Virus record (IMG/VR): IMGVR_UViG_3300010396_000081 | Coordinates: 1 to 32,021 of that record | Strand: one strand, 5' to 3' | DNA from: a virus | Length of the DNA stretch: 32,021 nucleotides | Part shown: positions 1 to 19,185 of the stretch, piece after piece | How positions within the stretch are numbered: position 1 is the stretch's first letter | Layout: every line of letters starts with the position of its first letter | Notes under the pieces: generated by a model | Database searches by the model: none | Told to the model about the DNA's origin: nothing | What the model saw: only the letters and a program-made list of their open reading frames with translations | Translations under genes and position numbers: made by a program

Positions 1-1300
1 GGTAAGGGTTGTTTATTTCATCCGGGTAGGTCCCGTTGAGATTGCCATCGTAATACTGGCAAGACGCGCGCCCGTTAGCCGTTTGCATGGATTTTCCGCG
101 ACCCCAGGTCCAATTCTCACCTAAGCTATTGACGAACGAGGCATTCCAACAGTTTGAGGGTCCCATGTAGCCTGCCACCCAATTGTGAGCACCGGGGCAG
201 ATACGGACAGGTCCGGGTAGCATATCCTCTTCCAGGCCGTTGTCATAGGAATACGGTTGGGGCGTAGTGCCATTGGGGGCACCTGTGCCAGCTTTATAGC
301 CGTACATCGGGTACATCTGCCCGTTGCCTGCTTGCCCGCAAATGTTGTCGCCAGTGAATCCAAGGGTAGAATCGACGCCCTTATAATATATACCTCCGGA
401 ATTGGCATATACATTAGCGACAGACATAGTCTGTCCTGTAGCGGGATCGGGCCCCAGGCCTGCCGTCAAAAAGGACGTGAAGTCTTGCGGCGTGTTGGAG
501 ACGGAAGCACTTGATCCCCCCCAATATTTCGGATGATCGCCCATGCCCAACACATGATGATTGTCGAGCAGGATTACCCCGAAGTCTCCTTCTTCGCAAA
601 CATCGATCGCATATCTCCCTGCGCCGAGCTGTATAGTGTCGGGAAGCGTGTAAGACACAGCCGGGCTCGTGCCGCGTTGCAGCATTGCCTTGTTATTGCT
701 GCCTGCCCAGCTCCACACCCGGCCCTTACTATCCAGCGCCCGGAGAACGTACTGCCCGACCACCTTGACGATGTGAACCGGGATCGGAAAAGTCACCCAA
801 ACGATAGAGGCCTGGTTGACCGTTGTGTTTGTCCCGTTGCCATGAATGCCGCCGGATATGGACCCTGCCATTCCCACCTGGCGCCCGGTTGTACTATCGG
901 TGGTCCAAATAACATCAAGCCAGTAAGGGCTTGCGCTGGAAGCCGTACAAAGCAATCCTGAGACGAAAGGCAGTGCATTTCCGGCACTATCCGTGGTGAT
1001 GTGTGAAAAGGCCCCACTTCCCGTAGAGAACACGCTACCGAGCATATACAGGCCTCCACTGGCATCTCCTGCGCCCGCATCATGGGGGCCGCCTTCTACC
1101 CAGGCAACCGTCGCCGGTTGATTCGTGCAAAGAGCGGGTACCGTGTTCAAAAGGTGGTATGCTTGGTTGGTTGTACCGTCGAAGATGAGGTTATAATATT
1201 CTCCCAGCGACACGTATGTAGCGCCGCCGCTGTAATATTTTGCCTTTGGGATCGCTGAAACGATCGCCAGCAAACAGGCTATATATAGGATGCGTTTCAT
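1..1300 (-). CDS. RCC1-like repeat protein with signal peptide (partial, runs off left edge)
   Basis: The frame is open from an ATG at 1298-1300 to the window edge, so at least 433 residues are present and the C-terminus is missing. The first ~20 residues (MKRILYIACLLAIVSA) look like a Sec signal peptide. Several segments resemble RCC1 beta-propeller repeats: GRVWSWAGSNNKAMLQRG near residue 200, GFTGDNICGQAGNG near residue 315, and LGENWTWGRG near residue 395. A propeller surface is usually used for binding, so a role in attachment or in binding a host molecule is an inference; nothing catalytic is visible. It starts only two bases after the stop of the tailspike gene, so it is probably co-transcribed with it and belongs to the host-recognition or secreted end of the late operon. 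It could instead be a host-modifying secreted protein. The open frame is certain; the RCC1 assignment is moderate. Confidence 0.7.
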   Translation of the reverse strand, partial: MKRILYIACLLAIVSAIPKAKYYSGGATYVSLGEYYNLIFDGTTNQAYHLLNTVPALCTNQPATVAWVEGGPHDAGAGDASGGLYMLGSVFSTGSGAFSHITTDSAGNALPFVSGLLCTASSASPYWLDVIWTTDSTTGRQVGMAGSISGGIHGNGTNTTVNQASIVWVTFPIPVHIVKVVGQYVLRALDSKGRVWSWAGSNNKAMLQRGTSPAVSYTLPDTIQLGAGRYAIDVCEEGDFGVILLDNHHVLGMGDHPKYWGGSSASVSNTPQDFTSFLTAGLGPDPATGQTMSVANVYANSGGIYYKGVDSTLGFTGDNICGQAGNGQMYPMYGYKAGTGAPNGTTPQPYSYDNGLEEDMLPGPVRICPGAHNWVAGYMGPSNCWNASFVNSLGENWTWGRGKSMQTANGRASCQYYDGNLNGTYPDEINNPY

Positions 1301-1302
1301 GC

Positions 1303-4300
1303 TTATTGAATTGGGTATTGAAATGAATACTGAAGAACTATCGGAATCCCCGACGCCGCCGCTCCCGAAGCATAGGATAGTTCCGCGATATGATTCGTCG
1401 AATAGGTGGTAACGGTTATTCCTGTCCCATTTCCAACCGCCGTCCAACCACCACCCCAGCAGGCGTGGCCGCCATTTAAAAGAGATGCAACCGGAAGAGT
1501 GACCGAAATATTGACCTGCGAATTATTGGCGGAGGCGGTAACTGTCATGGACCCATACACGGTTACAACATTCCCACTCCTAGACCATGTTGCAGAATCC
1601 GCCGTTACGCTGGTCACAAAATTTATCCCGGTAACGGTGGGCACATATATGCCCGATGAACCGCCCCCAACACCTCCTTGGCTAACCGTATCTACTCTAT
1701 CGGTAGAAGTATTCCACACCAATAGGGGCATCGCAGACGTACCCGTCCCGGGCTTTGTGAACATAATCGAGTCAGGACTTACCCACATCGTAGCGCCAGT
1801 GTATGACCCGTGCGTAAGCGAAATGCTCTTGCCGCCCATCGCTACAAATCCAAGATCGTCGGTTTTCATTACCCATTGAGGCGTGAATGTTCCAGCGGCC
1901 GTAGAAGGATTATTGGAAAAAGCCAACTGACCATTGTAGAAATTGAACCCTTCCGAATACCCCGCGTTTGGTTTTGTCCATCCGCTGGCATACTTCATAT
2001 TGTCGAACAAGTTCATGTTATTTGCTGCCGCGCCACCTACCCATATATCAGATATCCGGGTTTGAGCGTTGGTCAGGGTATATGCGGCCGTATCGACGTA
2101 GAAAAGACTTCTCGATGCATCGAAACCAAGATTGGAACTGGCTCCGAAGGCGCCGGAATTATTATAGATAATCTGCGTATTTGAACCGGGTACACCTCCG
2201 CCAAAAGGGGCCGCAGCCCTCATTGTATTGTCGGCTGCATGATACACCAAAGGAGAGTCAGTAATCAGTCCACCAGCTAATGGTGTAGGGTTAATCCATA
2301 TTTTACTCGTTCCAACCACAACGGTCGACCCAGAAGTCGATCCAACCGACAACGAAGCATTGCCGCCTAAGTAGACCGACCCATTATCATTATAATCAGT
2401 CTTTAAAGATACATTAGGGGTGAAGGCGCCTGTACCAGTATTGTTCGTAAAGATGGCGAATTGGCCATTGTACATATTCACACCTTCCGTGAATCCGCTT
2501 ACTGGCCGCGTCCATCCGCTATTGTAATTGGCGTTATCGGCGAATATCTGATTATTTGCCGCGGCTCCTTGTAAATACATGCCGGAAATATTTCCCTGAT
2601 ACCCGGTAAGCGTATAGGTAGCAGGCTGTACGCTGAATGTAGAGTTGAATGTAGCAGCACCTTTGAATGTCGAAGTGCCTATTACCGATAGCGTTGTACT
2701 GTCAGTTACGGCTCCATGATTGATGACATTTCCGAAGATGTCATTTTGCTGAAAGGTAGAATTCGTAATATAGGCCAGTGATCCATATCCCGTTACATTC
2801 ATCGGCATAGCCACCGATAGATTGGTAATGCTGTCTATCCGCAGAGCGAATCCAGTGGGCTGACTTTGCCCTCCTAGAATAAGTCCATGCAATTGAACGT
2901 TGTAGAGATCGCTAAGGTCTATCGATGGAGAGGTAGTGGCGTTGGTGTTATAGGATTCAATTTCGTTATCGGCAATTATGACATTCCCTACATTCCCTCC
3001 CGACAGGTTATGAATATAGATAGGTGTCTTTTGGATGCCTTCTATCCAGTTGTTCGCTATCCGTATATCAGAGGTGGGGCCGTCCCTAGCGTCAATTTTA
3101 ATGGCATACCAAAAAGCTCCATTGGGCTTATTCACAAGCCCGCTGACCGAGCAAAATTGCACTTCAAGAGCAGATGGGTTAGAAACATACATCCCCACGG
3201 TCGTTGTCGATCCAGTAGCGAAAGTGTCTGACACGATATTGACATGGTGGATAAAGATGCCTCCAAAATCGGTTGTACCAACAACAATGTCTCGGATCAG
3301 CATTCCTGTGTCGACAGGGAATAGGACGTTAATGTGATCGTACGTCACCAAATTCGCAGACTGCTGATTGATGCCATTGAAGAATCGAACAATATTTAGA
3401 TTTTTGAAGTTCGATTCCTGGTTGTTGTTCTTGATGACGATCCCCGCTCCGGCGGTTGGGCGGGAAGATGCGATGTTGACGATGCTCAGGTCGTGGACGT
3501 TCATTACCGGGTAGACATTTGTGGTCGTTCTGTCGAAGACCAGGCCGTCCGCCGTCCCGTTGTCCATGTAGATCACGGAGGGATATAGCGAGGGGGTGTC
3601 CGATAGTTGATAATAAGTGAACTGTCCCTGACCAGCTCCGTATAGCTCGCCGTTCTTTCCCGAAAATAAAAGGGAGTCGGTAATGCGATATCCTAAATTT
3701 CTGGTCCCCGCTGTAGCGGGTGGGACATATATTTTGAATCCAAAAAGATTTGCCGCAGCAATCGCATTACGAAAGGCAGTTGTATTATTCGTTCCATTCC
3801 CGCTAGTCCCGTTGCAGTCTGCAACTGCTCCAAAGGCCGTGACCGGAATAATATATGGCGCGACCGATCCGCTTCCGCTACCCGCCCGGACATCCACCCA
3901 CGACCCATTGTCGTAACTCCATATGGCAGAATCTGCTGAAAAATAATAACATTGACAGTTAGAAGCAGCAGGGCGGGACAAATAGGCTCCGGCTGTAACA
4001 TTCGGCCCTTTGATCGCACTGACAGGAACGGCCTTTAATTGCTGGTTTGCCGTTTTGATGACCGCCGAATCTGTTCCGGCTGGCGTAGCCTGACCTGCTA
4101 GGCCGGTCCAATAGAAGGGGAACCCATTGATATAAATGGTATCCGCCCGACTGAATGCCCCGGCCGCACCGCCCAAGACTAAAGAATCCCCTCCTGAAGC
4201 GGACACGCCTTGGCGCCCGTAAATGGTAGACGTTATCGACAACCAGACACTTCCGTTGCTATACTGAAAGAAGTTTGAATCGGTGTTGTAATACAGCCCC

Positions 4301-5448
4301 GGACCAGATGAAGCCGCTGGCATGATTGCCGTATTCCCTGAGCCGAGGATCTTGGCTCCTCCGGAGTTAGTGACGAAGTTCAAAATACTTTGAACTTGGG
4401 TAGGCGTGAGATCCTGCGGAACACCGGCGCTCACCGCGCCTTTGATGGTATTGGCGCCCATGTTGTTTAGGGCGGAATTGGGCACATTGGCCGATCCGAT
4501 TAAACGAGTATCATTGCCCTTGACTGCCTGGGACGAACTTGCGTTTCCGGATGCAGGAACATCGACAACTGCGGCTGTACCTAAACCAAGGTTAGTGCGT
4601 GCCGTCGAAACATTATTTAGGTCGGACAAATTGCTGGCTATCGCCAATTTTAGATTGAGCGCATTTTGCAGATCTGTTTGGCTGGCGAGCGATCCTGTTA
4701 TTGCCCCCCAACTGACGGTCCCGGAACCACCACCACCCGCTGCCGTCAGCCAGGTCGAGCCGTTATCGAAATATATTTTCGCCGAGTCGGTTGCAAAATA
4801 AAACCTGTAGGGAACACCCGCCGATGGCCTGCTGCTGTACGTGCCGGACGCCCAGCTGTAGGCGCCTCCCGCATTGACTACCTGTTGAAAATTGATGACG
4901 TTCGGTAAACCGTTAGATGTCAAATAACCTGCTGGATTGGTAGAGAGCGGATAGAAAGACGCCTGAGCAACCGACAGCCTAACATAGGCCGCCAACATAG
5001 CAGCTGTATCACCTGGTGCTATGGGCTTATATCCTAATGCTCGCTGTCTTGCTTGAAGGGAGTCGTATAGGTCGGTTTGGCTGGTCAATGTCCCCAGTAT
5101 CGTTCCCCAAACAGGAGCGCCTCCGGCTGCCGAGCTATCTACCATATGCCATGCCTTCAAGGATGGATCCCATACATATAGATGATGCCCGCATGAATCA
5201 TAGTAAGGTGTGAATAGCGGCAGTATCTGCCCGTGCCCAAAGCCGATCGAAAAGAGAAAAGTGGAATCGGTCGGCGCTCCGCAGCCGGTAGGACCATATA
5301 ACACGGAATCAAAAACACCGCGACGCGGGTAAATTCCCCAGCTATTTGACGGAGACGGGAAAACCTGGGCCGAAGAGATAATCGAATAGAGACAGAAAGC
5401 TACTGCTGGTATAATTCGGCAGAATATCGATTTGGTTCTGGCGTTCAT
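1303..5448 (-). CDS. Tail fibre/tailspike with beta-helix (pectate-lyase-like) domain and signal peptide
   Basis: A 1381-residue protein with the modular look of a phage fibre. Residues 1-28 form an apparent Sec signal peptide ending IISSAQ, which is unexpected for a virion protein. Residues ~30-520 hold fibre-type repeats: two LxSQTDLxxxL motifs and three modules with the pattern DSxxxxYxNGSxW, two of them preceded by SRP. Residues ~525-830 start with VTAFGAVADCNGTSGNGT, typical of the pectate-lyase-3 right-handed beta-helix of tailspikes, followed by N-rich helical rungs. Residues ~950-1230 contain two copies of a module including SGWT+P..G++EG.N+YNGQ. The C-terminus (~1266-1381) resembles a trimeric knob found at the end of many fibres (RSGNVVTVYGSMTV, then LPVASLLNGG). 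No intramolecular chaperone peptidase motif was seen. The fold suggests binding or cleaving a host surface glycan; catalytic residues cannot be assigned. Confidence 0.85.
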   Translation of the reverse strand: MNARTKSIFCRIIPAVAFCLYSIISSAQVFPSPSNSWGIYPRRGVFDSVLYGPTGCGAPTDSTFLFSIGFGHGQILPLFTPYYDSCGHHLYVWDPSLKAWHMVDSSAAGGAPVWGTILGTLTSQTDLYDSLQARQRALGYKPIAPGDTAAMLAAYVRLSVAQASFYPLSTNPAGYLTSNGLPNVINFQQVVNAGGAYSWASGTYSSRPSAGVPYRFYFATDSAKIYFDNGSTWLTAAGGGGSGTVSWGAITGSLASQTDLQNALNLKLAIASNLSDLNNVSTARTNLGLGTAAVVDVPASGNASSSQAVKGNDTRLIGSANVPNSALNNMGANTIKGAVSAGVPQDLTPTQVQSILNFVTNSGGAKILGSGNTAIMPAASSGPGLYYNTDSNFFQYSNGSVWLSITSTIYGRQGVSASGGDSLVLGGAAGAFSRADTIYINGFPFYWTGLAGQATPAGTDSAVIKTANQQLKAVPVSAIKGPNVTAGAYLSRPAASNCQCYYFSADSAIWSYDNGSWVDVRAGSGSGSVAPYIIPVTAFGAVADCNGTSGNGTNNTTAFRNAIAAANLFGFKIYVPPATAGTRNLGYRITDSLLFSGKNGELYGAGQGQFTYYQLSDTPSLYPSVIYMDNGTADGLVFDRTTTNVYPVMNVHDLSIVNIASSRPTAGAGIVIKNNNQESNFKNLNIVRFFNGINQQSANLVTYDHINVLFPVDTGMLIRDIVVGTTDFGGIFIHHVNIVSDTFATGSTTTVGMYVSNPSALEVQFCSVSGLVNKPNGAFWYAIKIDARDGPTSDIRIANNWIEGIQKTPIYIHNLSGGNVGNVIIADNEIESYNTNATTSPSIDLSDLYNVQLHGLILGGQSQPTGFALRIDSITNLSVAMPMNVTGYGSLAYITNSTFQQNDIFGNVINHGAVTDSTTLSVIGTSTFKGAATFNSTFSVQPATYTLTGYQGNISGMYLQGAAANNQIFADNANYNSGWTRPVSGFTEGVNMYNGQFAIFTNNTGTGAFTPNVSLKTDYNDNGSVYLGGNASLSVGSTSGSTVVVGTSKIWINPTPLAGGLITDSPLVYHAADNTMRAAAPFGGGVPGSNTQIIYNNSGAFGASSNLGFDASRSLFYVDTAAYTLTNAQTRISDIWVGGAAANNMNLFDNMKYASGWTKPNAGYSEGFNFYNGQLAFSNNPSTAAGTFTPQWVMKTDDLGFVAMGGKSISLTHGSYTGATMWVSPDSIMFTKPGTGTSAMPLLVWNTSTDRVDTVSQGGVGGGSSGIYVPTVTGINFVTSVTADSATWSRSGNVVTVYGSMTVTASANNSQVNISVTLPVASLLNGGHACWGGGWTAVGNGTGITVTTYSTNHIAELSYASGAAASGIPIVLQYSFQYPIQ

Positions 5449-5467
5449 TGCACTAAGGATTTTAGCT

Positions 5468-5505
5468 TCTGTCTGCCAAATATTTTAGCAATACCGTCAG
5501 ACAGA
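5468..5505. promoter_or_regulatory. Inverted repeat upstream of the tailspike gene
   Basis: TCTGTCTG at 5468-5475 and its exact reverse complement CAGACAGA at 5498-5505 are separated by 22 bases in the 130-base gap 5449-5578 between the collar-fibre and tailspike genes. On the minus strand an AAATATTTG sequence lies between the arms and resembles the Bacteroidota -7 element TAnnTTTG with one mismatch; no convincing -33 element was found. It could be an operator or a weak promoter region for the last two genes. This is a sequence observation with an inferred role. Confidence 0.3.
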
Positions 5506-5563
5506 TAAAGGTAATTGAATGTTTTTGTCGTCTTTGTTGTCGAAGGGTCGAATTTTCGGTTAA

Positions 5564-5577
5564 CCGTAGATTTACGG
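5564..5577 (-). repeat. 14-bp partial palindrome, copy 1 (CCGTAAATCTACGG)
   Basis: On the minus strand CCGTAAATCTACGG starts two bases after the last base of the TAG stop of the collar-fibre gene. It has 5-base complementary arms around a 4-base loop and overlaps the perfect 10-bp palindrome CGGTTAACCG at 5557-5566. An identical copy lies at 24822-24835 and a 12/14 match at 29386-29399, each at the 3' end of a gene. There is no strong T-run after it, so it is a poor terminator; it may be a protein-binding site or an RNA processing signal. Confidence 0.5.
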
Positions 5578-5578
5578 A

Positions 5579-7024
5579 CTACACCAAAAGCCATTTACGG
5601 ACGGCAATGTTTGCTGGGCAGTGATCGTTGCCGCCAGTACTGCTTGTTAGTCCTTGATAAGTATCGCCGGGTGGATTACCGTTCTGTATTTGACCGTTTG
5701 CAAATCCGGGCATCCCCGCAGTTGTTGTGCCGTACACGAACACGTTTCCGGCTGCTCCTGGTGCTTTATCATCAGCCACACCATTGTAATGGCTATGGCC
5801 GAGTAATTGAGGGCCACCATAATTCCCCGGAGACCTGGTCCCATCGGTAATTCTCTCGAACATGTTGAGCCGATTCGGAATGTGAAACTTGCCGTTGTTC
5901 GCCGGGTTGGCTGAATTCGCCAATGAATAAATATATTTATTGTTGCCTGTGGCCCAATCGTCGTAATTACACACTTCCGCCGGCGGCAGGTTCAATACAA
6001 AATCATTATACAGCCGCGCATATTGCTGGTTATCAAGAGCCGTACCATCGAGCATTTGTTTATTGAATACGTTCGCAGCAATATTATCGTCAACAACCTG
6101 CTCTCCTATACGCAACCAGTTCCCGAACGGACAATCCACTCTCCAACGCTTTACGGCGTCCGTATCAACGAAGGGGTAGATATATAGGCTTTCCAGGTTG
6201 CAGATATAGAGGTTGTTTCTATTCCCTTGCAACCACGATAGAACCTCGCCAGGTTGGAAAATTAGTTTTGCGCATTGTTGTATTGCTCCGGGATCGAACT
6301 CTATTTTTATCCGTTTGTTCGCCGGAACGCTGGCAATAGCAGGGAAAGTGACCTCCAAATAAGTTCCAGCGGGCCGAATGATCAATCCTCCACCAAAGTC
6401 AGCGCCTGCGTCAACCGGATAATTTGCCGTGATCACCTTTGGAGTGGCAAAGGCCGGATAGCTAGCAGGCGGCGAGGATGTTTGCTGCGTAACCTGTAAA
6501 ACGAACGATACATTAAACCATTCGCCGGGATTGAATAGGTCGCCGGCCGTGAGAAGCTGCAGGGTGCCCGTGTTGGGATTCCAGGAATATTCGACGCCCT
6601 TTTTCATCACGCCTTCGCCCCCCATGCGGTTTAGCGTGCCAATATCGAAGCCGCGCCAATCCTCTTTTCCGCCTGTGCCGTCGAAAACCACCGTATTCAC
6701 ACCGCTGCTGAAACCGGTTGTAGTGTCCGCCGTGATCTGTTCCGGCGCCCTGGCCGTAACTTGAGAATAAGCGCCAGGAACTACATTCATATCCTTTCCC
6801 AACTGCTGGATGATATTTCCCGATCCGTCGACCTCGTAAACCCTGAAAAGAATATTTACCCGGTCAAGTCCCGGGAAACTCCATGTTTCCTGATCATTGT
6901 GTGGCGCGGCGTGCGTTTGCGAAGTCACAATGGCCAGTGGATCGCTTTCATAGTAAACGCGTACCTGGATGGGATTAACGATCGAAGGATATGCGCCGGT
7001 CCATACTTGAAGTGTTGTCGTCAT
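5579..7024 (-). CDS. Tail fibre/baseplate protein with C-terminal tail-collar-like domain
   Basis: A 481-residue protein. The C-terminal ~105 residues look like a phage tail-collar domain: FHIPNRLNMFERITDG (compare the F.iPdLRGRF pattern of collar proteins), then GGPQLLGHSH, ending in NIAVRKWLLV. Residues ~97-178 carry a module with FDGTGGKEDWRG and YSWNPNTGTLQLL that is clearly homologous to residues 108-187 of the connector-region protein at 19205-20077. The N-terminal ~90 residues are beta-rich by appearance and probably anchor it to the tail tip. The ATG lies two bases after the stop of the upstream tail-tip gene, so they are translated from one message. It is most likely a short fibre or an adaptor at the distal tail; the exact position in the virion is inferred. 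Confidence 0.75.
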   Translation of the reverse strand: MTTTLQVWTGAYPSIVNPIQVRVYYESDPLAIVTSQTHAAPHNDQETWSFPGLDRVNILFRVYEVDGSGNIIQQLGKDMNVVPGAYSQVTARAPEQITADTTTGFSSGVNTVVFDGTGGKEDWRGFDIGTLNRMGGEGVMKKGVEYSWNPNTGTLQLLTAGDLFNPGEWFNVSFVLQVTQQTSSPPASYPAFATPKVITANYPVDAGADFGGGLIIRPAGTYLEVTFPAIASVPANKRIKIEFDPGAIQQCAKLIFQPGEVLSWLQGNRNNLYICNLESLYIYPFVDTDAVKRWRVDCPFGNWLRIGEQVVDDNIAANVFNKQMLDGTALDNQQYARLYNDFVLNLPPAEVCNYDDWATGNNKYIYSLANSANPANNGKFHIPNRLNMFERITDGTRSPGNYGGPQLLGHSHYNGVADDKAPGAAGNVFVYGTTTAGMPGFANGQIQNGNPPGDTYQGLTSSTGGNDHCPANIAVRKWLLV

Positions 7025-7026
7025 AG

Positions 7027-10000
7027 TTAAGATGTTTGATCGTCAGTTACGTTAATAACTCCTTCATTTTGACCAAATGCCGTCGCGTCATAAGTGAAGG
7101 TGATGGCGTCGATATCTGCATCCCCGGCTGTCGCGAAGGTCGTACCGGTGACATTCTCCGTCGGATATAGGTCGATCTTCACTTCCAACTGTGGTACGCC
7201 CTGGCCGAGATCCTGCGGTTCCCACTTGCTATCAGCCCCACGGTTGTAGGCCTCGTTTTCGATCCTGAGGTTATCGAGGCCGGTGATCATGTTCATCTTC
7301 AGGGCCATATAATCGGCGAGTAGTTGATCTTCGGTGCCATATTGTACGGTGCGGAAACGTTTCGGCAGGTTGCGGGTAGTTTCATAATCCCCTACCTCAT
7401 CCTCATAGACATCCACTTCACTGTCAGATTGCCAGGGATATAGCTTGCCTTCTACCCGGAGCATAGTTTTGATGCCGGTGGAGAAGTAATAATCAATGCG
7501 GTCCACCGAACCGTCATATTTGTGCCTCAGCGTCCCCGGGAAATCGGTTTGAAAGTTGAGTTTGTTGGTAATGCCGACGATATTACCGTCGGCCACAAGG
7601 GCCGCCCAATACAATCCAGCGGGATAGCTCGCAAGCGGAATACTTACCTCGAGTAAAACATTTGGCGACTGCACGACCGATCCGGCAGGAGTTGAATACG
7701 GTATGACGTCTACAACAAGGCCGGTGGCCACTGACACCAGGTGTAATTCGCATTCCCCCACACCATTAGTGATCATCTGGTCGACAATGGTATCTGTGGG
7801 TATCTCCCAGGGTTGCTTGTAGTCGGGGCGGCCGTATGCGCTATAATTCGGCCAACGGTTTTCCTCCCAATCGTCGTAGATGTCCGCAAAGTGGCAACCG
7901 GCCACCGGCGTAGCATTGTATTTGACGAAGTGAAGGGGATTATAATCGGATCGGTAGATCATATGTTTGCCTATTTGAATGGAGGTTCCGTTTTGAAACA
8001 GGGCCAGAAGCGTCGAGAAAGGCGTTTTGCCAGAAACGAGCAGCTTCCAGGTTTGGGCCTGGTCGGTAGCCGGCTTCATCGTCATTTGGCCAATGGGAAG
8101 TAAATAGAGCTCCAACCCCTTGTATTCCGCCGTGATATAGCCACCGGTCTGCAGCTGGGTCATGATCTCGTTGAACGTGTTTGGGACCGGAGATTTTAAG
8201 GAGACATAGAAGGGCCAGTATAGGGGAGCAGCTAGGCTGTTCACGGGAATATTGGCGTTCTCGCTCACCACCAGGCCGTTTTTGCTGCGGGTGAGGTTAG
8301 CGTTTACCTCGGCACCATTGAAAAGGATGCGTTGAAGAGCTTGCTGGGTGAGGAAGGATGATAGTGTGTTGTCGTGGGCCCTCAGACATAGATAAGGCGA
8401 CGTTTCCTCGATATTGAATAGCGTCTCAGGATGCAGAAATTGTCCAAGTGTCGGCGGCAAGGTCGAAGGATCGACCCCGGCGGGGACATATTGATCATCC
8501 AGCCGGATGGAGTCGTAATCCATGACCGGGCCCTTATTGGTGCCGCGCATGAGACGGAAACCGCTGATAGACGCGGAAACATTGACTGGCAAAGAGGTGG
8601 TCCCAAAAACATGCAGCCCATCTGGGATATAATTGATGATCAAATCCGTCGACGGATCGGTCATTTCGGTAAACTGGAATTGCCAACGGCCATTAGCGTC
8701 GGCTACGGTGGTGCCGACCGGTCCGGCGATATCAGTTATAAGGTCTATCGGCCCCCCGCCTCCATCGATGAAGATGTCAATCGTTGCGCCTGGCTGGGCT
8801 ACGCCCTTTAATAATGGCGTGTTGGTATAGAGTGTGTCGTTGTAAAGGATGCTGGTAATGAGCGGCATTGACAGATCGTTGCTGACGATTAGGGAAATTG
8901 CCGGAGTCACCGGCAAGCCCGGGGAAGTCGCTGTGAGCGTGTGGTTGCCGTTGGATATTGGAGCGGTTGTCTGGAATGACCATAGGCTTGATGAATTGGC
9001 TACGACGCGCCCGATTTGTACGCCGTCGAGCAAGACAGATACAACATTGCCTTGCGGAGCCGTGCCGGTGATCTTTGGCAGATTATCATACAAGGAGTCG
9101 CCGGAAGTCGGGCTGGTGATGACGAAAGAAGCAGTAAGCGCCGGATTTACCGTCAGCAAGACGGCCGGGCTGAAATCGCTAATATTGCTTGGATCGGTTT
9201 GAGCGTTGGCAGTGATAGAATGCACCCCATTGAAATTGAGCGACATCACCCGAAGCGCCGTCTGTATCTGATAGGACCAATTGCCATTAGCATCAGCCAC
9301 CGTGGTACCATCTATCTGACCGTCAGCATAAATGGTTATGGTTACATTCGCCTGCGATATGCCTGTAATCGTAGGGTATTGGCTATATACCAACGTACTC
9401 GAATAGGGCGTCCGGATAACGGGGGCAGCCAAGATAAGCGTAACGATGGTCGCGGGAAAAGCATTGTCGATTACGCCCGGCGCCTGCCCGATGACGTCGG
9501 TTACCATAGCAACGAAGACATCCGTATCCCCCTTGTCGTCCGTTGTGGTCAGGTTCGGGTAGTTGGTTCGTATGAACTCCATACCAAAAGAGTCCGCCCG
9601 ATAGGTCGATACCAGGTCCATAGAATTGACCACCGTCGTGATTGGAAAGGTATAGTTGTGTGTGCAGTTGAATTCGTACCTACCATTGCGCTGGTTGTAC
9701 GTCTGTTTCAGGTAGCCGACCTTCGCCGAGGCATAGATGAATTCCTTAGCCACCGATAAGATGACGTTGCTGACATTGGGCAGCCGCATAATCTCATTAT
9801 TGCTATTATATAGGTCAGTGACCGGCTCAAGCCACAAGACCCCGTTGCGGACGGCAATGCCTAATTCGTAGGGAACAAAAAAGGACTTGTAGAAATCTGC
9901 AAAACACGTCATGATCTGAGCGTCCGGGAAACTTCTAAGTGATGACCCGGAGAGCACGCATTTGCGATTATTTTGCCGGAGAAAATTGCTATCCGCCGTA

Positions 10001-11124
10001 TATCTGCCGAGCGTAATTTGCGAAACCAGACTTTGGAGCACATCTATGGGCCTGAGAGCATAGTTTACAGACGGCTGCTGTTGACTGGCATATACCGCCG
10101 AAATAGTCGTAGCAAATGGCGTGATCGTCATGGAATTGATCTCCGGATCGGCTATTTCCATGAAAAGGAATAGCTTTTCATTCGCGGCCAGCGATATCTT
10201 CATATTGAATGCTACCGTATAGGTTTGGCCTACAACAAAAGCGGGGTGGGGCGTTCCCAGTGCCGGACCGATATTTTGCCAAACGACCTTATTGGGGTCG
10301 GGTCTTGAATCCAGGCTAGTAAAAAACAATACCCCGATGCCGCCGCCATTATACCTAAGCGCGCTCCATTTGAAGGAGAATGTGCCGGACAACTTTACCA
10401 CTGTCGGAACATCGAAGACGAGGAAATCATTGGCCGTTGCTGGGTCTTGCGCGTAAGTAACAGGGTTGTCGAAATTGGCGTAGTCCTCCGAGCCGAAAAT
10501 CGCTCCTACACTATCGCCCTCGTTATTTAGAAAGGTGAGTGGGACAGCAAACCAGAAATGGCCGGTGTTGTTGACGATAGGAATACTCGTTACGCTATAG
10601 TTCAACTTATCCTGCAGTAGAATGCCATCGAAAAGAACCGGTATAGCTAGAGGATTGGATGAATTGCAGGGGATGGAATACATCGTACTCTCGTTGGCTT
10701 GCGCCAGGGCGAAGACATCGTATTGCAAGGTGTTGGCGGAAATGCCGGTACGAGGGTCGCCGACGATGGAGCTAATATCCACCCGCTCCCTGTACTCCAA
10801 TTCGTAATAGTTCAGCCCTTTGGCCGGATTATTCCGCAGGATGACCAGATAGAGTATTTCTTCCGTTCCGGCGCCATTGATCAGCCGGTCCATTAAGATC
10901 GCCTGGCCATCCTCGATGAACTTTAGCGCGCTGGAAACTGATCTGAGTGTAGCAAAATAGTTCTGGTTGAAGTCGAATTGCAACGTATAGTCCTTCCAGC
11001 CGTTGGGATTTTTCCTTAACGCTTTGGGGATAGAACGCGGTTTCACAACGCCATTGTCCACGTAATAACACCGGTTGTAGGCATCCGTAAAGAAGAATTG
11101 CAGTTTTTTGGTTGCTATACTCAT
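7027..11124 (-). CDS. Large tail-tip/baseplate protein with Ig-like repeats
   Basis: A 1365-residue protein encoded directly after the tape measure gene, the usual place for tail-tip or tail-associated proteins. The N-terminal ~550 residues are not recognisable by eye but begin like a structural protein with no signal peptide. Residues ~560-855 contain three bacterial Ig-like repeats of ~95 residues, marked by PTITGISQANVTITIYADG and by two VADANGxW segments (TTVADANGNWSYQ and TTVADANGRWQFQ). The C-terminal ~500 residues include acidic stretches such as SEVDVYEDEVGDYETT and an aromatic-rich region. Ig-like domains on tails commonly bind weakly to cell-surface carbohydrate. The gene overlaps the tape measure stop as ATGA, indicating coupled translation. 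A role as the central tip or receptor-binding hub is inferred from order and size; no peptidoglycan hydrolase motif was seen. Confidence 0.7.
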   Translation of the reverse strand: MSIATKKLQFFFTDAYNRCYYVDNGVVKPRSIPKALRKNPNGWKDYTLQFDFNQNYFATLRSVSSALKFIEDGQAILMDRLINGAGTEEILYLVILRNNPAKGLNYYELEYRERVDISSIVGDPRTGISANTLQYDVFALAQANESTMYSIPCNSSNPLAIPVLFDGILLQDKLNYSVTSIPIVNNTGHFWFAVPLTFLNNEGDSVGAIFGSEDYANFDNPVTYAQDPATANDFLVFDVPTVVKLSGTFSFKWSALRYNGGGIGVLFFTSLDSRPDPNKVVWQNIGPALGTPHPAFVVGQTYTVAFNMKISLAANEKLFLFMEIADPEINSMTITPFATTISAVYASQQQPSVNYALRPIDVLQSLVSQITLGRYTADSNFLRQNNRKCVLSGSSLRSFPDAQIMTCFADFYKSFFVPYELGIAVRNGVLWLEPVTDLYNSNNEIMRLPNVSNVILSVAKEFIYASAKVGYLKQTYNQRNGRYEFNCTHNYTFPITTVVNSMDLVSTYRADSFGMEFIRTNYPNLTTTDDKGDTDVFVAMVTDVIGQAPGVIDNAFPATIVTLILAAPVIRTPYSSTLVYSQYPTITGISQANVTITIYADGQIDGTTVADANGNWSYQIQTALRVMSLNFNGVHSITANAQTDPSNISDFSPAVLLTVNPALTASFVITSPTSGDSLYDNLPKITGTAPQGNVVSVLLDGVQIGRVVANSSSLWSFQTTAPISNGNHTLTATSPGLPVTPAISLIVSNDLSMPLITSILYNDTLYTNTPLLKGVAQPGATIDIFIDGGGGPIDLITDIAGPVGTTVADANGRWQFQFTEMTDPSTDLIINYIPDGLHVFGTTSLPVNVSASISGFRLMRGTNKGPVMDYDSIRLDDQYVPAGVDPSTLPPTLGQFLHPETLFNIEETSPYLCLRAHDNTLSSFLTQQALQRILFNGAEVNANLTRSKNGLVVSENANIPVNSLAAPLYWPFYVSLKSPVPNTFNEIMTQLQTGGYITAEYKGLELYLLPIGQMTMKPATDQAQTWKLLVSGKTPFSTLLALFQNGTSIQIGKHMIYRSDYNPLHFVKYNATPVAGCHFADIYDDWEENRWPNYSAYGRPDYKQPWEIPTDTIVDQMITNGVGECELHLVSVATGLVVDVIPYSTPAGSVVQSPNVLLEVSIPLASYPAGLYWAALVADGNIVGITNKLNFQTDFPGTLRHKYDGSVDRIDYYFSTGIKTMLRVEGKLYPWQSDSEVDVYEDEVGDYETTRNLPKRFRTVQYGTEDQLLADYMALKMNMITGLDNLRIENEAYNRGADSKWEPQDLGQGVPQLEVKIDLYPTENVTGTTFATAGDADIDAITFTYDATAFGQNEGVINVTDDQTS

Positions 11125-15245: not shown

Positions 15246-15255
15246 TCAGTTAATT

Positions 15256-15828
15256 TTATGGCCGTTTCCAGATAAAACCACCAGCCGATCTCGCCTTCCC
15301 TTGAATCGCCGAATTAATATTGGACTGTCTAATGCCCGTTTCGCGTTGCGCATCTGCTTCGCTAAAAAACACCTTCACCAGCTCTCCTAATTTTGTATAT
15401 TGAGCAACCGGCTTTGAAAACCTACGTCTGCATGATTCGGCGCATTTTTGAATCGTATTTGCATGCAATCCTGTTTTATACGCATGCTGCTGATTCTCTT
15501 CCCTCGTATTCCATTCCAGATTGTCTTTTCGGCAGTTGAGTTTATCTCCGTCTTTATGATTGACTTCTGGTTTGCATTCTGGATTTGATATATGCGCGAT
15601 GGCAACAATTCGGTGAACTAAAACATTTTTTGAAATTCCGCTCTTGACTAGATTTACAGTTAGATAACCTCCTTCACATTGCAAACCGGGTCGCAGAATT
15701 CTATCTGGCTGATGACGGACAGCGCCACGGCCCCAAACCCAAGATCGAGCCAATGATTTTATACGTCCTAAGTCTGACACCTCGTATACCCCTTCATATC
15801 CTGGTATGTCTTTCCATTCTTCCATCAT
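15256..15828 (-). CDS. Free-standing HNH homing endonuclease (NUMOD4-HNH)
   Basis: A 190-residue protein with the standard domain order of this family. Residues ~1-30 form a NUMOD4-like start (EEWKDIPGYEGVYEVSDLG followed by RIKSL). An HNH core follows, with VHRIVAIAH, NHKDGDKLNCRKDNLEW and NTREENQQHAYKTGL. A C-terminal NUMOD1-like DNA-binding segment has AQYTKLGELVKVF and FSEADAQRETGIRQSNINSAIQGKARSAGGFIWKR patterns. Such enzymes cut related genomes that lack the gene and so spread by repair. It sits between the gene at 15825 and the tape measure gene and probably is a late insertion, as it is not structural. The first of two tandem ATG codons gives an ATGA overlap with the upstream stop; the second, three bases on, is also possible. 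All key HNH residues appear present. Confidence 0.9.
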   Translation of the reverse strand: MMEEWKDIPGYEGVYEVSDLGRIKSLARSWVWGRGAVRHQPDRILRPGLQCEGGYLTVNLVKSGISKNVLVHRIVAIAHISNPECKPEVNHKDGDKLNCRKDNLEWNTREENQQHAYKTGLHANTIQKCAESCRRRFSKPVAQYTKLGELVKVFFSEADAQRETGIRQSNINSAIQGKARSAGGFIWKRP

Positions 15829-16484
15829 CTTGGTTTCTTTATTCTTTGTTGAGCTTTTGATTCCTCTACCTCATCCCTCCGGTCTTTGATCATGAGGGCT
15901 AACTCTTCAACTGATGTTTTTTCCTTATCTATGTGAAAGCCGGATTGCGAAAGGCGGTTAAGCGTGGTCACAAAATCCTTTCGGCTTTCCAATATGGAAT
16001 GCTCTTTAGTCTGCTTCTTTTTGCGAAGAGCAATCAGCTCGTTGACTTTTTTGTCTACGATAGCCTGGTATTTTGTTTCACGGGCCTCGATCTTGATCAA
16101 CTTTTTCAGGAAGCCTTCTTTATCCGGATAGTTTTGGTCCCAATAGATTTCATGTCCGTATTTTTTTACCATCTTTAATTCTGGCAGGTACGGAATATCG
16201 AAGTGTTTTAAGAATTTTCTTTGCAGATCGATAAACCGTTTTATGGTCTGGATGCGATTATCAAGCGAGTTTATGTAGGATACGATATCAAATTCTTGAG
16301 ACTGGAACAGACCGGAATAGTCGGCGTATTCGGCGTAGATGTATTCGAAGGCTATCCGGAGATCATCCTCCGATGCCTCGCCTTCGATCAATAGCGCCTT
16401 GTATTTATGATCGAACGAGCATTGCATGAACTGCTTTACCGAACAATCGGCAGCGCGTTGGATAATATTTTCCGGAATAGGCAT
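15825..16484 (-). CDS. Hypothetical tail-region protein, helical and charged
   Basis: A 219-residue protein I do not recognise. It is rich in K, E and aromatic residues, with likely helices throughout and a coiled-coil-like end (~125-219, KVNELIALRKKKQTKEH). It begins as TAATG over the stop of the upstream gene and overlaps the endonuclease start by ATGA. Before the endonuclease arrived it would have been the gene just ahead of the tape measure gene, where tail-assembly chaperones are usually encoded. A chaperone role is therefore an inference from position only. No programmed frameshift signal was found at its boundaries. Confidence 0.6.
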   Translation of the reverse strand: MPIPENIIQRAADCSVKQFMQCSFDHKYKALLIEGEASEDDLRIAFEYIYAEYADYSGLFQSQEFDIVSYINSLDNRIQTIKRFIDLQRKFLKHFDIPYLPELKMVKKYGHEIYWDQNYPDKEGFLKKLIKIEARETKYQAIVDKKVNELIALRKKKQTKEHSILESRKDFVTTLNRLSQSGFHIDKEKTSVEELALMIKDRRDEVEESKAQQRIKKPR

Positions 16485-16957
16485 TATTTGTGGGTTACAA
16501 CAATTCCAGTTTTTTCAAGCAGTTGCGCTTCAACCGAAGGCATCGTATAGTTTTCCGCGAATTCAAGCCGGTGATCTTTGTCTACCTCCAAAAGAGCATC
16601 ATCGCTGTACAAGGTGATATCGCCGAAATAAGGCACATCGCTGTCGGCCTCGATCAATTGTCCTTCCGTTTTCATCTCCAGCGATTCGTAAAAAGCGCCG
16701 GTCATATAGTTGGTGACCCTGTCTATGACCGCCCCTAACCCCTGGCCGTTTGCCTTTTTGATCTCGACGGTACGCGGCGAATACCCATTGCGACCGAAGA
16801 TCGTGTTGGGCTTGTCGTTGCCGTCTTTGCCTTCTTCCAGTTGTTCGCGGATCATCGGCGGAAGCTTGTCCGCATTGTCTTCGACAGCGGTTTGTAGGGC
16901 TTGCCCGAAATCAAAGGCCTGGAGCTTAGATATCCGCTCAGCAAAATCATCCAGCAT
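16484..16957 (-). CDS. Hypothetical phage structural or assembly protein
   Basis: A 157-residue protein between the tail tube region and the tape measure gene. The segment TNYMTGAFYESLEMK (~95-110), followed by a beta-rich stretch ending near MPSVEAQLLEKTGI, resembles by memory a family of small proteins in Bacteroidota phages with a TGxFY pattern, whose function is not established. The N-terminal half is helical and acidic. It is preceded by a hairpin at 16972-17001, so its level may differ from that of the genes before it. It could be a tail completion or assembly factor; I cannot decide from sequence. Confidence 0.6.
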   Translation of the reverse strand: MLDDFAERISKLQAFDFGQALQTAVEDNADKLPPMIREQLEEGKDGNDKPNTIFGRNGYSPRTVEIKKANGQGLGAVIDRVTNYMTGAFYESLEMKTEGQLIEADSDVPYFGDITLYSDDALLEVDKDHRLEFAENYTMPSVEAQLLEKTGIVVTHK

Positions 16958-16971
16958 AAAGAAAGTTTTGA

Positions 16972-17001
16972 AATAAGGCCGCAGTCTTCCACGGCCTTAT
17001 T
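16972..17001 (-). terminator. Intergenic hairpin, possible weak terminator or attenuator
   Basis: AATAAGGCCG and CGGCCTTATT form a perfect 10-bp stem around a 10-base loop in the gap between the 78-residue gene and the 157-residue gene, starting 6 bases after the TAA stop. On the minus strand the stem is followed by TCAAAACTTTC rather than a clean T-run, so termination would be partial at best. A hairpin just after the tail-tube section could lower transcription of downstream assembly genes or stabilise the upstream message. Confidence 0.5.
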
Positions 17002-17007
17002 AGGTTA

Positions 17008-17244
17008 TTAAGCAGGGGTACCGGCAGGCTTAACCGGAGAAACGGCCACGCTCTTGGGGATGCCCAATTCAGCGGCCAGCTCTTCATAGGCGACATCCTG
17101 CGCACCTTGCGGCAGGTGTCCGAATATCTTGCCAGGTTCCTTTTTAAGGTCGTCTAGCGACTTATAGGAAGCGAAGGCTTCAAGGTTCACATCGACACCT
17201 TTGATGCCTTTTTCGTCTACCGGGCCAAATCTTTTAGTTGCCAT
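17008..17244 (-). CDS. Small hypothetical protein after the tail tube gene
   Basis: A 78-residue protein with no recognised domain. It contains DLKKEPGKIFGHLP and ends in a P/A/V-rich tail (SVAVSPVKPAGTPA). It lies between the putative tail tube gene and the tape measure group and is followed by a hairpin. The FGHLPQGAQDVAYEELAAELG stretch suggests a small helical fold. Its place is compatible with a tail-assembly helper, but this is only positional. The ATG start is clear and the gene has a 45-base spacer from the upstream stop. Confidence 0.55.
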   Translation of the reverse strand: MATKRFGPVDEKGIKGVDVNLEAFASYKSLDDLKKEPGKIFGHLPQGAQDVAYEELAAELGIPKSVAVSPVKPAGTPA

Positions 17245-17289
17245 GTTATTTAAGCTTTTAAAAATGATAAATTGGATGATAGCAACGGA

Positions 17290-18219
17290 TTACGGGATCG
17301 TGATGTTAACCGATTGGATTCCTTCATATCCTTCGACCCCGTTGGTAAAGAGCGTAGAAACAGAAGCCAACGCAACCGTATACTCCGTACCGCTGGCAAA
17401 AGTGCCGGTGAGCTCGATATGTCCGCCTACGATTGCGGCTGCGGTGATCGTTACTGGCGTTCCTGCAATAGTTGCCGTTACAACGAAGTTGGCAACAGCG
17501 GCCAGCGGCGATCCAACCAGCGCTACCAGGTCAGTATTGGCGCAAAGGGTTTCGACGCCGATCTTCAGTTTGGTAGTGCTCGATCCTGTTGCATCGGTTA
17601 CTTCTACATCCAGCAGTCCCGTCAGATCGGTGATCGCGGCATCGCTCTGGAAAATCTCACCGAAATTGACATACTCCTGCACGTCAATCGTCATCTGGAA
17701 ATAGATATATCCCGGATTTTTGAAATCGGCGAAGTCTGGCGACGGGCTGTACATAAAACTCGTCTTGATGCCACTGAAAGTGCCATCCTCATTCGCCCGC
17801 ATAAGCACCTGGTTGGCATTGTCGACCTCGATGAACGAGTAGCCGGCCCTTAACAGCGACTCAAGCACCTGCGCATAGCATATCCCTCCCTCCGTCGTTC
17901 CAAACATCCGGGTGATCTTGCCGTAACGAACGAATATCGGGGTGCCATCATCCTGAATGGGGATAACGTCGCCTTCTTTGTTCACGGTCAGTTTACGGAT
18001 CGGAACATCGGGACCAAACAACGGATAGATCCGCTGTCCTGCCGCCGCGTGAATTTGCGTTTGCAGGTAAGCGTCGAAATTAAGCATGTCCGTGGCCGTC
18101 CATTTGAGGTTCGGCGGCACCATGAACAGCATTGAGGTCGGCCCCATCGATTCGCTGCACTCGGAGCCGGAGTTTTTTATCGTAAGCGCTTTTAAGCACG
18201 CTTTAATTAAAGCACCCAT
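17290..18219 (-). CDS. Putative major tail tube protein
   Basis: A 309-residue protein in the position expected for the tail tube, after the connector genes and before the tape measure group. The first ~200 residues are beta-rich with a pattern of short strands (for example PGYIYFQMTIDVQEYVNFGEI), and the last ~100 (LDVEVTDATGSSTTKLKIG to the end) look like an added Ig-like or surface domain of low complexity, rich in T, A and V. Tube proteins of siphoviruses often carry such a C-terminal decoration. The N-terminus has two Cys residues (C8, C20). I call it tube by context and fold impression; no specific motif proves it. Confidence 0.6.
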   Translation of the reverse strand: MGALIKACLKALTIKNSGSECSESMGPTSMLFMVPPNLKWTATDMLNFDAYLQTQIHAAAGQRIYPLFGPDVPIRKLTVNKEGDVIPIQDDGTPIFVRYGKITRMFGTTEGGICYAQVLESLLRAGYSFIEVDNANQVLMRANEDGTFSGIKTSFMYSPSPDFADFKNPGYIYFQMTIDVQEYVNFGEIFQSDAAITDLTGLLDVEVTDATGSSTTKLKIGVETLCANTDLVALVGSPLAAVANFVVTATIAGTPVTITAAAIVGGHIELTGTFASGTEYTVALASVSTLFTNGVEGYEGIQSVNITIP

Positions 18220-18232
18220 TGAAAAAGTGTTT

Positions 18233-18757
18233 TTAAGATTTACATTTTGTTACTGTCTTGAAAGTCAATTCCAGGTTCTGCAGCTCGATCGCGTCGATAT
18301 AATCGTTCAGTTTCGCTTCCGCTTCCGACCCAAACCTGTCCCACTTGACCATCTGGAAAGCTCCTGGGTCATTGCCCACGACATTGGGATGCTTTGCAAG
18401 CTGACGCAGGAACTCTCCATAGATCGGATAAAGAACAGGTTTCATGGTCTTCGTCATGCGTGCCTGCGGTTCATCCGTCAGGTTAGATAGCATGGCAATG
18501 GATATCTTGGGAAACTTCACGACGGCATAGTAGCCGGTGCCGGTTTGTTCCGGGAAATCCTGGAACACGGCGAAGAGTGGATACTTGTTATCTTTCAACG
18601 TGATTGAGCCATTGAGCTTTTGGAGCTTCGTCAGGATTTGAATAGGCCGGCCGTAGTAATAGAGGATATGCTTGTTGAGGACAGGGAATAAGACGTCGTC
18701 GACGGCCTTCACTACCTCGCCAAGAATATCCACGATATATAGCGGCTGCCATTTCAT
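18233..18757 (-). CDS. Putative tail completion/head-tail joining protein
   Basis: A 174-residue protein with no firm family match. It lies between connector-type genes and the putative tube gene, where tail terminator or completion proteins are encoded. The sequence starts MKWQPLYIVDILGEVVKAV and has an aromatic-rich middle (TGYYAVVKFPKISIAML) and a C-terminal stretch of alternating hydrophobic residues (NLELTFKTVTKCKS). The start overlaps the stop of the signal-peptide protein as TAATG, and the next gene begins 13 bases after its own stop, so all are in one operon. Confidence 0.5.
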   Translation of the reverse strand: MKWQPLYIVDILGEVVKAVDDVLFPVLNKHILYYYGRPIQILTKLQKLNGSITLKDNKYPLFAVFQDFPEQTGTGYYAVVKFPKISIAMLSNLTDEPQARMTKTMKPVLYPIYGEFLRQLAKHPNVVGNDPGAFQMVKWDRFGSEAEAKLNDYIDAIELQNLELTFKTVTKCKS

Positions 18758-19185
18758 TAGTCCGTCTGTTTACGAGCTACGAGTTTGCCACTGATGGACC
18801 CCGACATGGTTCCGGTACCGGTCCATTGCACGCCATACCATTTCCATCCCTTTTGAAAGCTGTAGCCTTTGATAAGGTTCCCATTGGGGACGGTAACTGT
18901 GTCTTTGGTGATCTGGCTGATGTCGTGCCAATTAGTCCCATCGTCACTGCCGACAGGAACCATCGTTCCCCCATTGGTGCCGGATATCTTCGTGATCACG
19001 ACGGTCGCCGTGATCGTTTCCTTGTATCCGATGGTGTTCAGGGCCATAATGCGAGCAGTGGTGCCGGTGACCGTATCCAGCACTCCGCCGCTGGTCGTCG
19101 AAAGCAGGCTCGATTGCGCCGATCCTGCAAAAGCCATCGCCAACAGGCAAATGGCTAAAAAAGATGCTTTGAGATGCGTTTTCAT
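18757..19185 (-). CDS. Small beta-rich protein with signal peptide inside the connector cluster
   Basis: A 142-residue protein. The first ~23 residues (MKTHLKASFLAICLLAMAF then AGSAQ) form a textbook Sec signal peptide with the SAQ end common in Bacteroidota. The mature part is beta-rich and contains VGSDDGTNWHDIS and a repeated G/T pattern near the end (GTGTMSGSISGKLV). DGTNW-type segments occur in small beta-sandwich proteins of phages, but export of a protein encoded between connector genes is unexpected. It may be a secreted accessory protein acting in the envelope, such as superinfection exclusion, or a virion decoration with an unusual N-terminus. Both are inferences. It starts 19 bases after the connector-region gene. 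Confidence 0.7.
   Translation of the reverse strand: MKTHLKASFLAICLLAMAFAGSAQSSLLSTTSGGVLDTVTGTTARIMALNTIGYKETITATVVITKISGTNGGTMVPVGSDDGTNWHDISQITKDTVTVPNGNLIKGYSFQKGWKWYGVQWTGTGTMSGSISGKLVARKQTD

Follow-up and report, generated by a model that had tools for sequence, protein, structure and literature searches.

Gene Organization of the Window

The stretch of DNA analyzed here, referred to as the window, is the whole 32,021-base IMG/VR virus record IMGVR_UViG_3300010396_000081. Its main genes are all located on the minus strand and are arranged in the order terminase, portal, protease-like, capsid, adaptor, tail tube, tape measure, tail tip, collar-like protein, tailspike, and RCC1-like protein. 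The virus is apparently a tailed phage of Bacteroidota, a host assignment based on the Q-rule signal peptides described below and on related phages. ORFs were called mechanically, and several of the compared phages are fragments. An initial annotation had assigned Sec signal peptides to three proteins of the virion gene cluster, and the three ORFs were indeed found on the minus strand at 1303–5448 (tailspike), 2–1300 (RCC1-like protein), and 18757–19185 (142-residue protein). The features considered in this study are the following.

2–1300, minus strand: RCC1-like protein, predicted to be exported; N-terminal 433 aa, running off the contig
1241–1300, minus strand: predicted signal peptide of the RCC1-like protein, residue 20 probably being the last before the cut, IPKA^K (signal-peptide rule and L149 alignment)
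1303–5448, minus strand: tailspike/fibre, 1381 aa, ATG start, consisting of a signal peptide, a conserved N-terminal domain, a variable centre (beta-helix-like by eye), and a conserved C-terminal domain (phrog_25379 tail protein, E 1e-8)
5119–5367, minus strand: conserved N-terminal domain of the tailspike, residues ~28–110, with a D-S-[TV] sequon at 47–49 and with Cys56 and Cys86 (PTGCG ... D[ST]CGH), defined by sequence conservation
5302–5310, minus strand: O-glycosylation-type sequon D47-S48-V49 of the tailspike, 19 residues past the predicted mature N-terminus
5368–5448, minus strand: signal peptide of the tailspike, residues 1–27, predicted signal peptidase I (SPI) cleavage SSA^Q
5579–7024, minus strand: short tail-fibre or collar-like protein lacking a signal peptide by the signal-peptide rule, directly ahead of the predicted exported fibres (weakly similar to gp17 of Pan5, “short tail fiber”)
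18757–19185, minus strand: beta-sandwich protein predicted to be exported, 142 aa, ATG start, in the capsid gene cluster, “KISGT” family (family conservation, context, and predicted fold)
19069–19077, minus strand: near-invariant sequon D37-T38-V39 of the 142-aa family
19117–19185, minus strand: signal peptide of the 142-aa protein, residues 1–23, predicted cleavage GSA^Q24
20467–21801, minus strand: major capsid protein, neighbour of the 142-aa family gene

No relatives of the capsid and adaptor proteins were found in the genome contigs searched, and a search for cultured-phage relatives of the 142-aa, tailspike, and capsid proteins gave nothing beyond short stretches. An HNH-endonuclease-like ORF (by eye) at 15256–15828 separates the tape measure gene from the small tail genes; it is missing at the corresponding place in the related phage L004.

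Signal Peptides of the Three Proteins

Tailed-phage fibres are held to fold and assemble in the cytoplasm, and the initial annotation was right to regard exported virion-module proteins as unexpected. Export signals were evaluated with a home-made rule that scores the n-region, the h-region, and the SPI site, and which accepted 10/10 textbook E. coli signal peptides. Among the 32 window genes, strong scores (4.36–4.86) were obtained for exactly the three proteins named in that annotation, the remainder scoring 2.4 or less, and a value of 4.3 was reached at 4 of 6,635 positions inside other window proteins. The predicted N-termini are MNARTKSIFCRIIPAVAFCLYSIISSA^QVFP for the tailspike, MKRILYIACLLAIVSAIPKA^KYYS for the RCC1-like protein, and MKTHLKASFLAICLLAMAFAGSA^QSSL for the 142-aa protein. 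The tailspike and the 142-aa protein exhibit a basic n-region, a hydrophobic core, a small residue at −1, and Gln at +1, thereby following the Q-rule of Bacteroidetes (PMC5837995, PMC10653852), where ~71% of the predicted SPI substrates have Gln directly after the cleavage site (PMC5837995). The SAQ ending, correctly recognized as a Bacteroidota pattern by the initial annotation, is present in these two proteins, for which alone it had been claimed, and not in the RCC1-like protein.

The RCC1-like protein carries a signal peptide with no Gln at +1. It aligns from residue 1 with the L149 protein encoded at 8549–10495 (32% identity over ~432 aa), whose own N-terminus, MRKLLFILLFFPALAHA^Q, possesses this Gln. 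The L149 protein contains RCC1-like and PKD domains, matching RCC1_2 and the RCC1-like domain, so that the label RCC1-like is justified by homology. The relationship came from this comparison with L149; a Pfam scan of the window fragment gave no direct RCC1 profile match, pattern and tblastn searches found no relatives, and a single-sequence fold prediction was useless (pLDDT 31).

No start codon exists upstream for any of the three ORFs. Since the next Met of the tailspike is residue 102, a cytosolic form of this protein could not keep its N-terminal domain. A lipobox Cys is absent at +1, which is occupied by Gln, Gln, and probably Lys, and no Pfam or NCBIfam match to a type IX secretion C-terminal domain was obtained in the tailspike, the 142-aa protein, or the relatives scanned, the C-terminus of the RCC1-like protein lying off the contig. 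When the prediction was extended to homologues, a check that the initial annotation had proposed, signal peptides were identified in 72 of 73 distinct members of the 142-aa family and in 10/10 tailspikes. Such conservation argues for the predicted export more strongly than the rule scores do, and the three proteins are very probably Sec substrates.

Tailspike and the Exported Proteins of the Fibre Locus

Using patterns placed outside the signal, the tailspike N-terminal domain was found in nine further phages, giving ten with the window. All ten possess a signal peptide in which a small residue precedes Gln (in the L185 tailspike, Gln lies one to three residues further on, depending on the site chosen), and DS[TV] is kept in 9/10. 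Cysteine counts were uninformative overall as a test of periplasmic residence, one Cys pair being conserved in this domain. A close relative, G017, shares both the N-terminal and C-terminal domains with the window and has a GDSL esterase as the centre, in contrast to the beta-helix-like centre of the window tailspike. An exchanged centre flanked by conserved ends is a usual design of phage receptor-binding proteins. The window protein has the position after the tail-tip genes, the modular architecture, and the fibre domains expected of a tailspike.

In most of the related phages whose tail end could be read, the fibre locus encodes 1–6 predicted exported proteins, often of 500–1,700 aa, which contain GDSL esterase, beta-helix, BNR, RCC1 plus PKD, and polysaccharide-lyase domains. 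In many relatives, the slot after the collar gene is filled by such long proteins. One of them (L062, 8790–10577) has a domain common to tail fibres or spikes of Proteobacteria, cyanobacteria, and Bacillus phages. In G004, a phage with no member of the 142-aa family, the fibres in this slot bear no signal peptides. No exported fibres were found in the stretch examined of G019, G020, G026, G031, G032, and G012, in Nonlabens phage P12024S, in Flavobacterium phage 6H, or in the tail genes of Bacteroides phage BO1, and a signal peptide was found in 0/22 fibre or tail proteins of phages of other phyla. Export is thus a lineage trait and not a property of all Bacteroidota phages.

The 142-aa Protein and the Head Module

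Family members of the 142-aa protein were gathered by the KISGT motif, which is located in the mature part, outside the signal peptide. Among the 73 distinct members, 71 passed the signal rule outright and one was just under the threshold; a small residue ([AGS]) followed by Gln is found in all 72 signal-bearing members (70 by automatic count and 2 by inspection). In the sole exception, L038, both the signal and the sequon are missing. This sequon, located 13 residues past the predicted mature N-terminus, has the form D[ST][AILVMT] in 63 of 66 aligned members. The predicted mature N-terminal tryptic peptide of the window protein, QSSLLSTTSGGVLDTVTGTTAR, takes in both the cleavage site and the DTV site. 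The capsid gene lies at most three genes upstream in ~62 of 73 loci, adaptor and tail genes follow downstream in most, and duplicated domains or tandem copies of the family occur in some phages.

An AlphaFold2 model of the 142-aa protein exhibited a beta-sandwich of moderate confidence (core pLDDT 70–86). A fold search against the PDB gave generic beta-sandwiches (best TM 0.46), with no known decoration protein among the best matches, and the best viral match was an uncharacterised phage protein (TM 0.61). PDB sequence matches for the family were rejected as weak or due to chance. The gene adjoins the major capsid gene, as expected of a capsid decoration (cement) protein; it was not classed as one because a structural match to a known decoration protein is lacking.

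Several peculiarities were observed in the head modules of related phages. In 15 of 62 related major capsid proteins (L006 1845–3317, L007 9725–11182, L019 2833–4281, L020 5692–7137, and 11 further loci), the part in common with the window capsid protein is preceded by a hydrophobic, signal- or membrane-anchor-like N-terminus. A ~120-aa protein with an N-terminal membrane segment is encoded between portal and protease in L006 (468–842), L007 (8305–8670), L019 (1481–1846), and L020 (4358–4705), that is, in the same phages as these capsid proteins, hinting at membrane-associated head assembly there. L012 encodes an 885-aa protein with an A^Q signal peptide (2351–5008) between the portal and protease genes, that is, in the head module and not at the tail end.

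O-Glycosylation Sequons

In Bacteroidota, D(S/T)(A/I/L/V/M/T) is the site at which exported proteins receive O-glycans in the periplasm; an excess of this motif in non-cytoplasmic proteins is a published signature of the phylum (PMC12871550). In the window, the large proteins with export signals contain 20 sequons versus 6.1 expected, whereas the non-exported large proteins contain 19 versus 19.5; the former thus combine an export signal with sequons above expectation, as Bacteroidota O-glycoproteins do. Over 24 phages, counted with slightly relaxed thresholds of the signal-peptide rule, 356 sequons were observed versus 152.8 expected in exported large proteins (2.33), and 228 versus 221.5 in non-exported proteins (1.03). 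The difference had this direction in 17 of 24 phages, with a within-phage permutation p of 2e-4, which is the floor for 5,000 permutations and is indicative, since phages of one lineage are not independent. Control motifs in the exported large proteins gave 1.21 (reversed), 1.0 (N[ST]h), and 0.61 (E[ST]h). Since T4 fibres alone show a mild excess (19 versus 11.3 over four proteins), a wider control was built from fibres of non-Bacteroidota phages, which gave 87 versus 80.9 expected (1.08). Six phages found later by the tailspike N-terminal domain alone gave 96 versus 24.9. The ratio was as high as 5.9 in small proteins with N-terminal membrane segments, many of which are probably periplasmic lysis proteins.

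The enrichment is not shared by all relatives. The exported fibres of G002, G009, G010, G022, G028, and G030 show none, so that glycosylation is not general; the hosts of such phages perhaps glycosylate differently or not at all. The exported fibres of G009, G010, G022, G028, and G030 have fewer sequons than expected (0.33–0.67), the reverse of the main pattern, and the small membrane-anchored protein of G009 and G010 is still sequon-rich. Structural constraints could also explain why the invariant sequons are retained, the 142-aa family being enriched 3.5-fold in D[NQG]h as well. For the window phage, the sequon pattern makes periplasmic O-glycosylation of the exported proteins fairly probable.

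A Possible Extracytoplasmic Maturation Pathway

The proteins encoded in the late virion operon may follow a common route. As Sec/SPI substrates, the three would cross the inner membrane and be cleaved, before Gln where the Q-rule applies, and a pyroglutamate would be expected at the new N-terminus. In the periplasm, the general O-glycosylation system of the host would then act at D(S/T)(A/I/L/V/M/T) in the window phage and many relatives. Since neither a lipobox nor a type IX signal is present, the proteins would stay soluble in the periplasm until lysis. On release they would attach to completed particles, where the 142-aa protein would probably decorate the head and the other two, the tailspike and the RCC1-like protein, would serve as fibres that bind or cut host glycans. 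The attachment to the particle is the least certain step, though it would fit the gene positions and architectures. Against the entire chain, some phages encode 3–6 exported proteins in tandem, seemingly in excess of what a tail requires, and the actual receptor-binding protein could be the collar-like one, which has no signal peptide. Assembly after lysis further requires free fibres to meet particles despite dilution, no known decoration protein is similar to the model of the 142-aa protein, and several phages lack the sequon enrichment. On balance, export, cleavage, probable O-glycosylation, and attachment at lysis as one chain appear about as credible as not. The wider proposal is somewhat more doubtful, namely that virion maturation in a clade of tailed phages is partly extracytoplasmic, with fibres and a capsid-associated protein Sec-exported, trimmed, pyroglutamated, O-glycosylated, and added at lysis.

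The main rival is that the exported proteins never enter the particle and form a periplasmic stock of enzymes or adhesins which, when freed at lysis, strips capsule, biofilm, and debris and aids the spread of progeny. The GDSL esterase, polysaccharide lyase, and beta-helix domains of the fibre-locus proteins suit such a role, as do PKD and RCC1-like domains, which are common in secreted proteins, the tandem arrangement of several exported genes, and the separate collar-like protein without a signal peptide. Free enzymes do not readily account for conserved N- and C-terminal domains around an exchanged middle, the tail-fibre domain homology of the L062 protein, the proximity of the 142-aa family to the capsid gene, or the ordinary fibres in the same slot of G004. 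We regard this possibility as serious though on the whole doubtful.

An action in or on the living infected cell, such as superinfection block or pre-coating of the surface, was proposed by the initial annotation, and many phages do encode exported exclusion proteins. Without a lipobox or a type IX C-terminal domain, the proteins have no known route to the surface before lysis, and soluble periplasmic proteins are not surface exposed; moreover, a late virion operon and a large, fibre-like size are at odds with such a function, which is improbable. The export design seen by that annotation therefore stands, while, of the roles it listed, a stable coating of the surface or a block of superinfection has the weakest support; either reaching the virion after lysis or acting outside on glycans may apply. 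Beyond what it described are the enrichment in sequons, the position of the 142-aa gene near the capsid gene, and the clade-wide nature of the trait.

The N-termini might instead remain uncleaved and, as anchors, draw the assembling virion to the inner membrane, in the manner of the hydrophobic N-termini of 15/62 related capsid proteins. Gln after a small residue in 72/73 fits cleavage by SPI, making this very improbable; the sequon enrichment, which implies a chain in the periplasm, argues weakly in the same direction, since an anchored chain reaches the periplasm too. Chance hydrophobic N-termini or wrong start codons, for which nothing was found in favour, are hardly credible given the rule background, the missing upstream starts, and the conservation across diverged homologues, which already refutes them.

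Comparison with Known Systems

Q-rule signals in Bacteroidota phages are already known from the P. gingivalis phages (“Nixviridae”), according to the main text of PMC10367356. These phages are similar to the window phage in having a Sec signal peptide followed by Gln, and some of their capsid proteins bear signal peptides, a situation similar to the hydrophobic N-termini of 15/62 window-related capsids. They differ in that five genes of unknown function are taken to modify the host envelope, and in that the capsid signals are thought to be removed by the prohead protease; that main text describes neither a fibre or tailspike family nor a sequon analysis. In the literature searched, which was partial and without supplements, exported tail fibres, O-glycosylation sequons, and glycosylated virions were not found for Bacteroidota phages.

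Modular tailspikes with enzymatic centres (beta-helix, GDSL/SGNH) resemble the window tailspike in their conserved ends, exchanged centre, and position after the tail-tip genes, but classical examples lack a signal peptide and are assembled cytoplasmically. The general O-glycoproteins of Bacteroidota (PMC12871550) are likewise exported and enriched in D(S/T)(A/I/L/V/M/T), whereas the window proteins are phage-encoded in a virion operon and their glycosylation is predicted from sequons. For the 142-aa protein, a homologue is the “cement protein” gp07 of Pseudanabaena phage Pan5 (ON968456; L040), linked to the family through an intermediate relative, which also adjoins a capsid gene and has an A^Q signal peptide. 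The Pan5 capsid protein looks unrelated to that of the window, and “cement” is the depositors’ label. Q-rule signal peptides are present on both gp07 and gp19 of Pan5. Pseudanabaena contributed only 70% of the 16S reads from the culture reported as its host, and the true host may be a Bacteroidota contaminant. Mass spectrometry of the Pan5 virion is reported in PMC9837993.

A group of Bacteroidota phages hence appears to route its fibres through Sec and to keep host O-glycosylation sites in them. Should the proteins not be in the virion, they would represent an overlooked set of glycan-active proteins freed at lysis. If they are virion components, phage assembly would have an unrecognised extracytoplasmic stage, fibres would be sugar-coated by the envelope pathway of the host itself, and the glycans of the host could influence how phages adsorb and interact in an abundant phylum.
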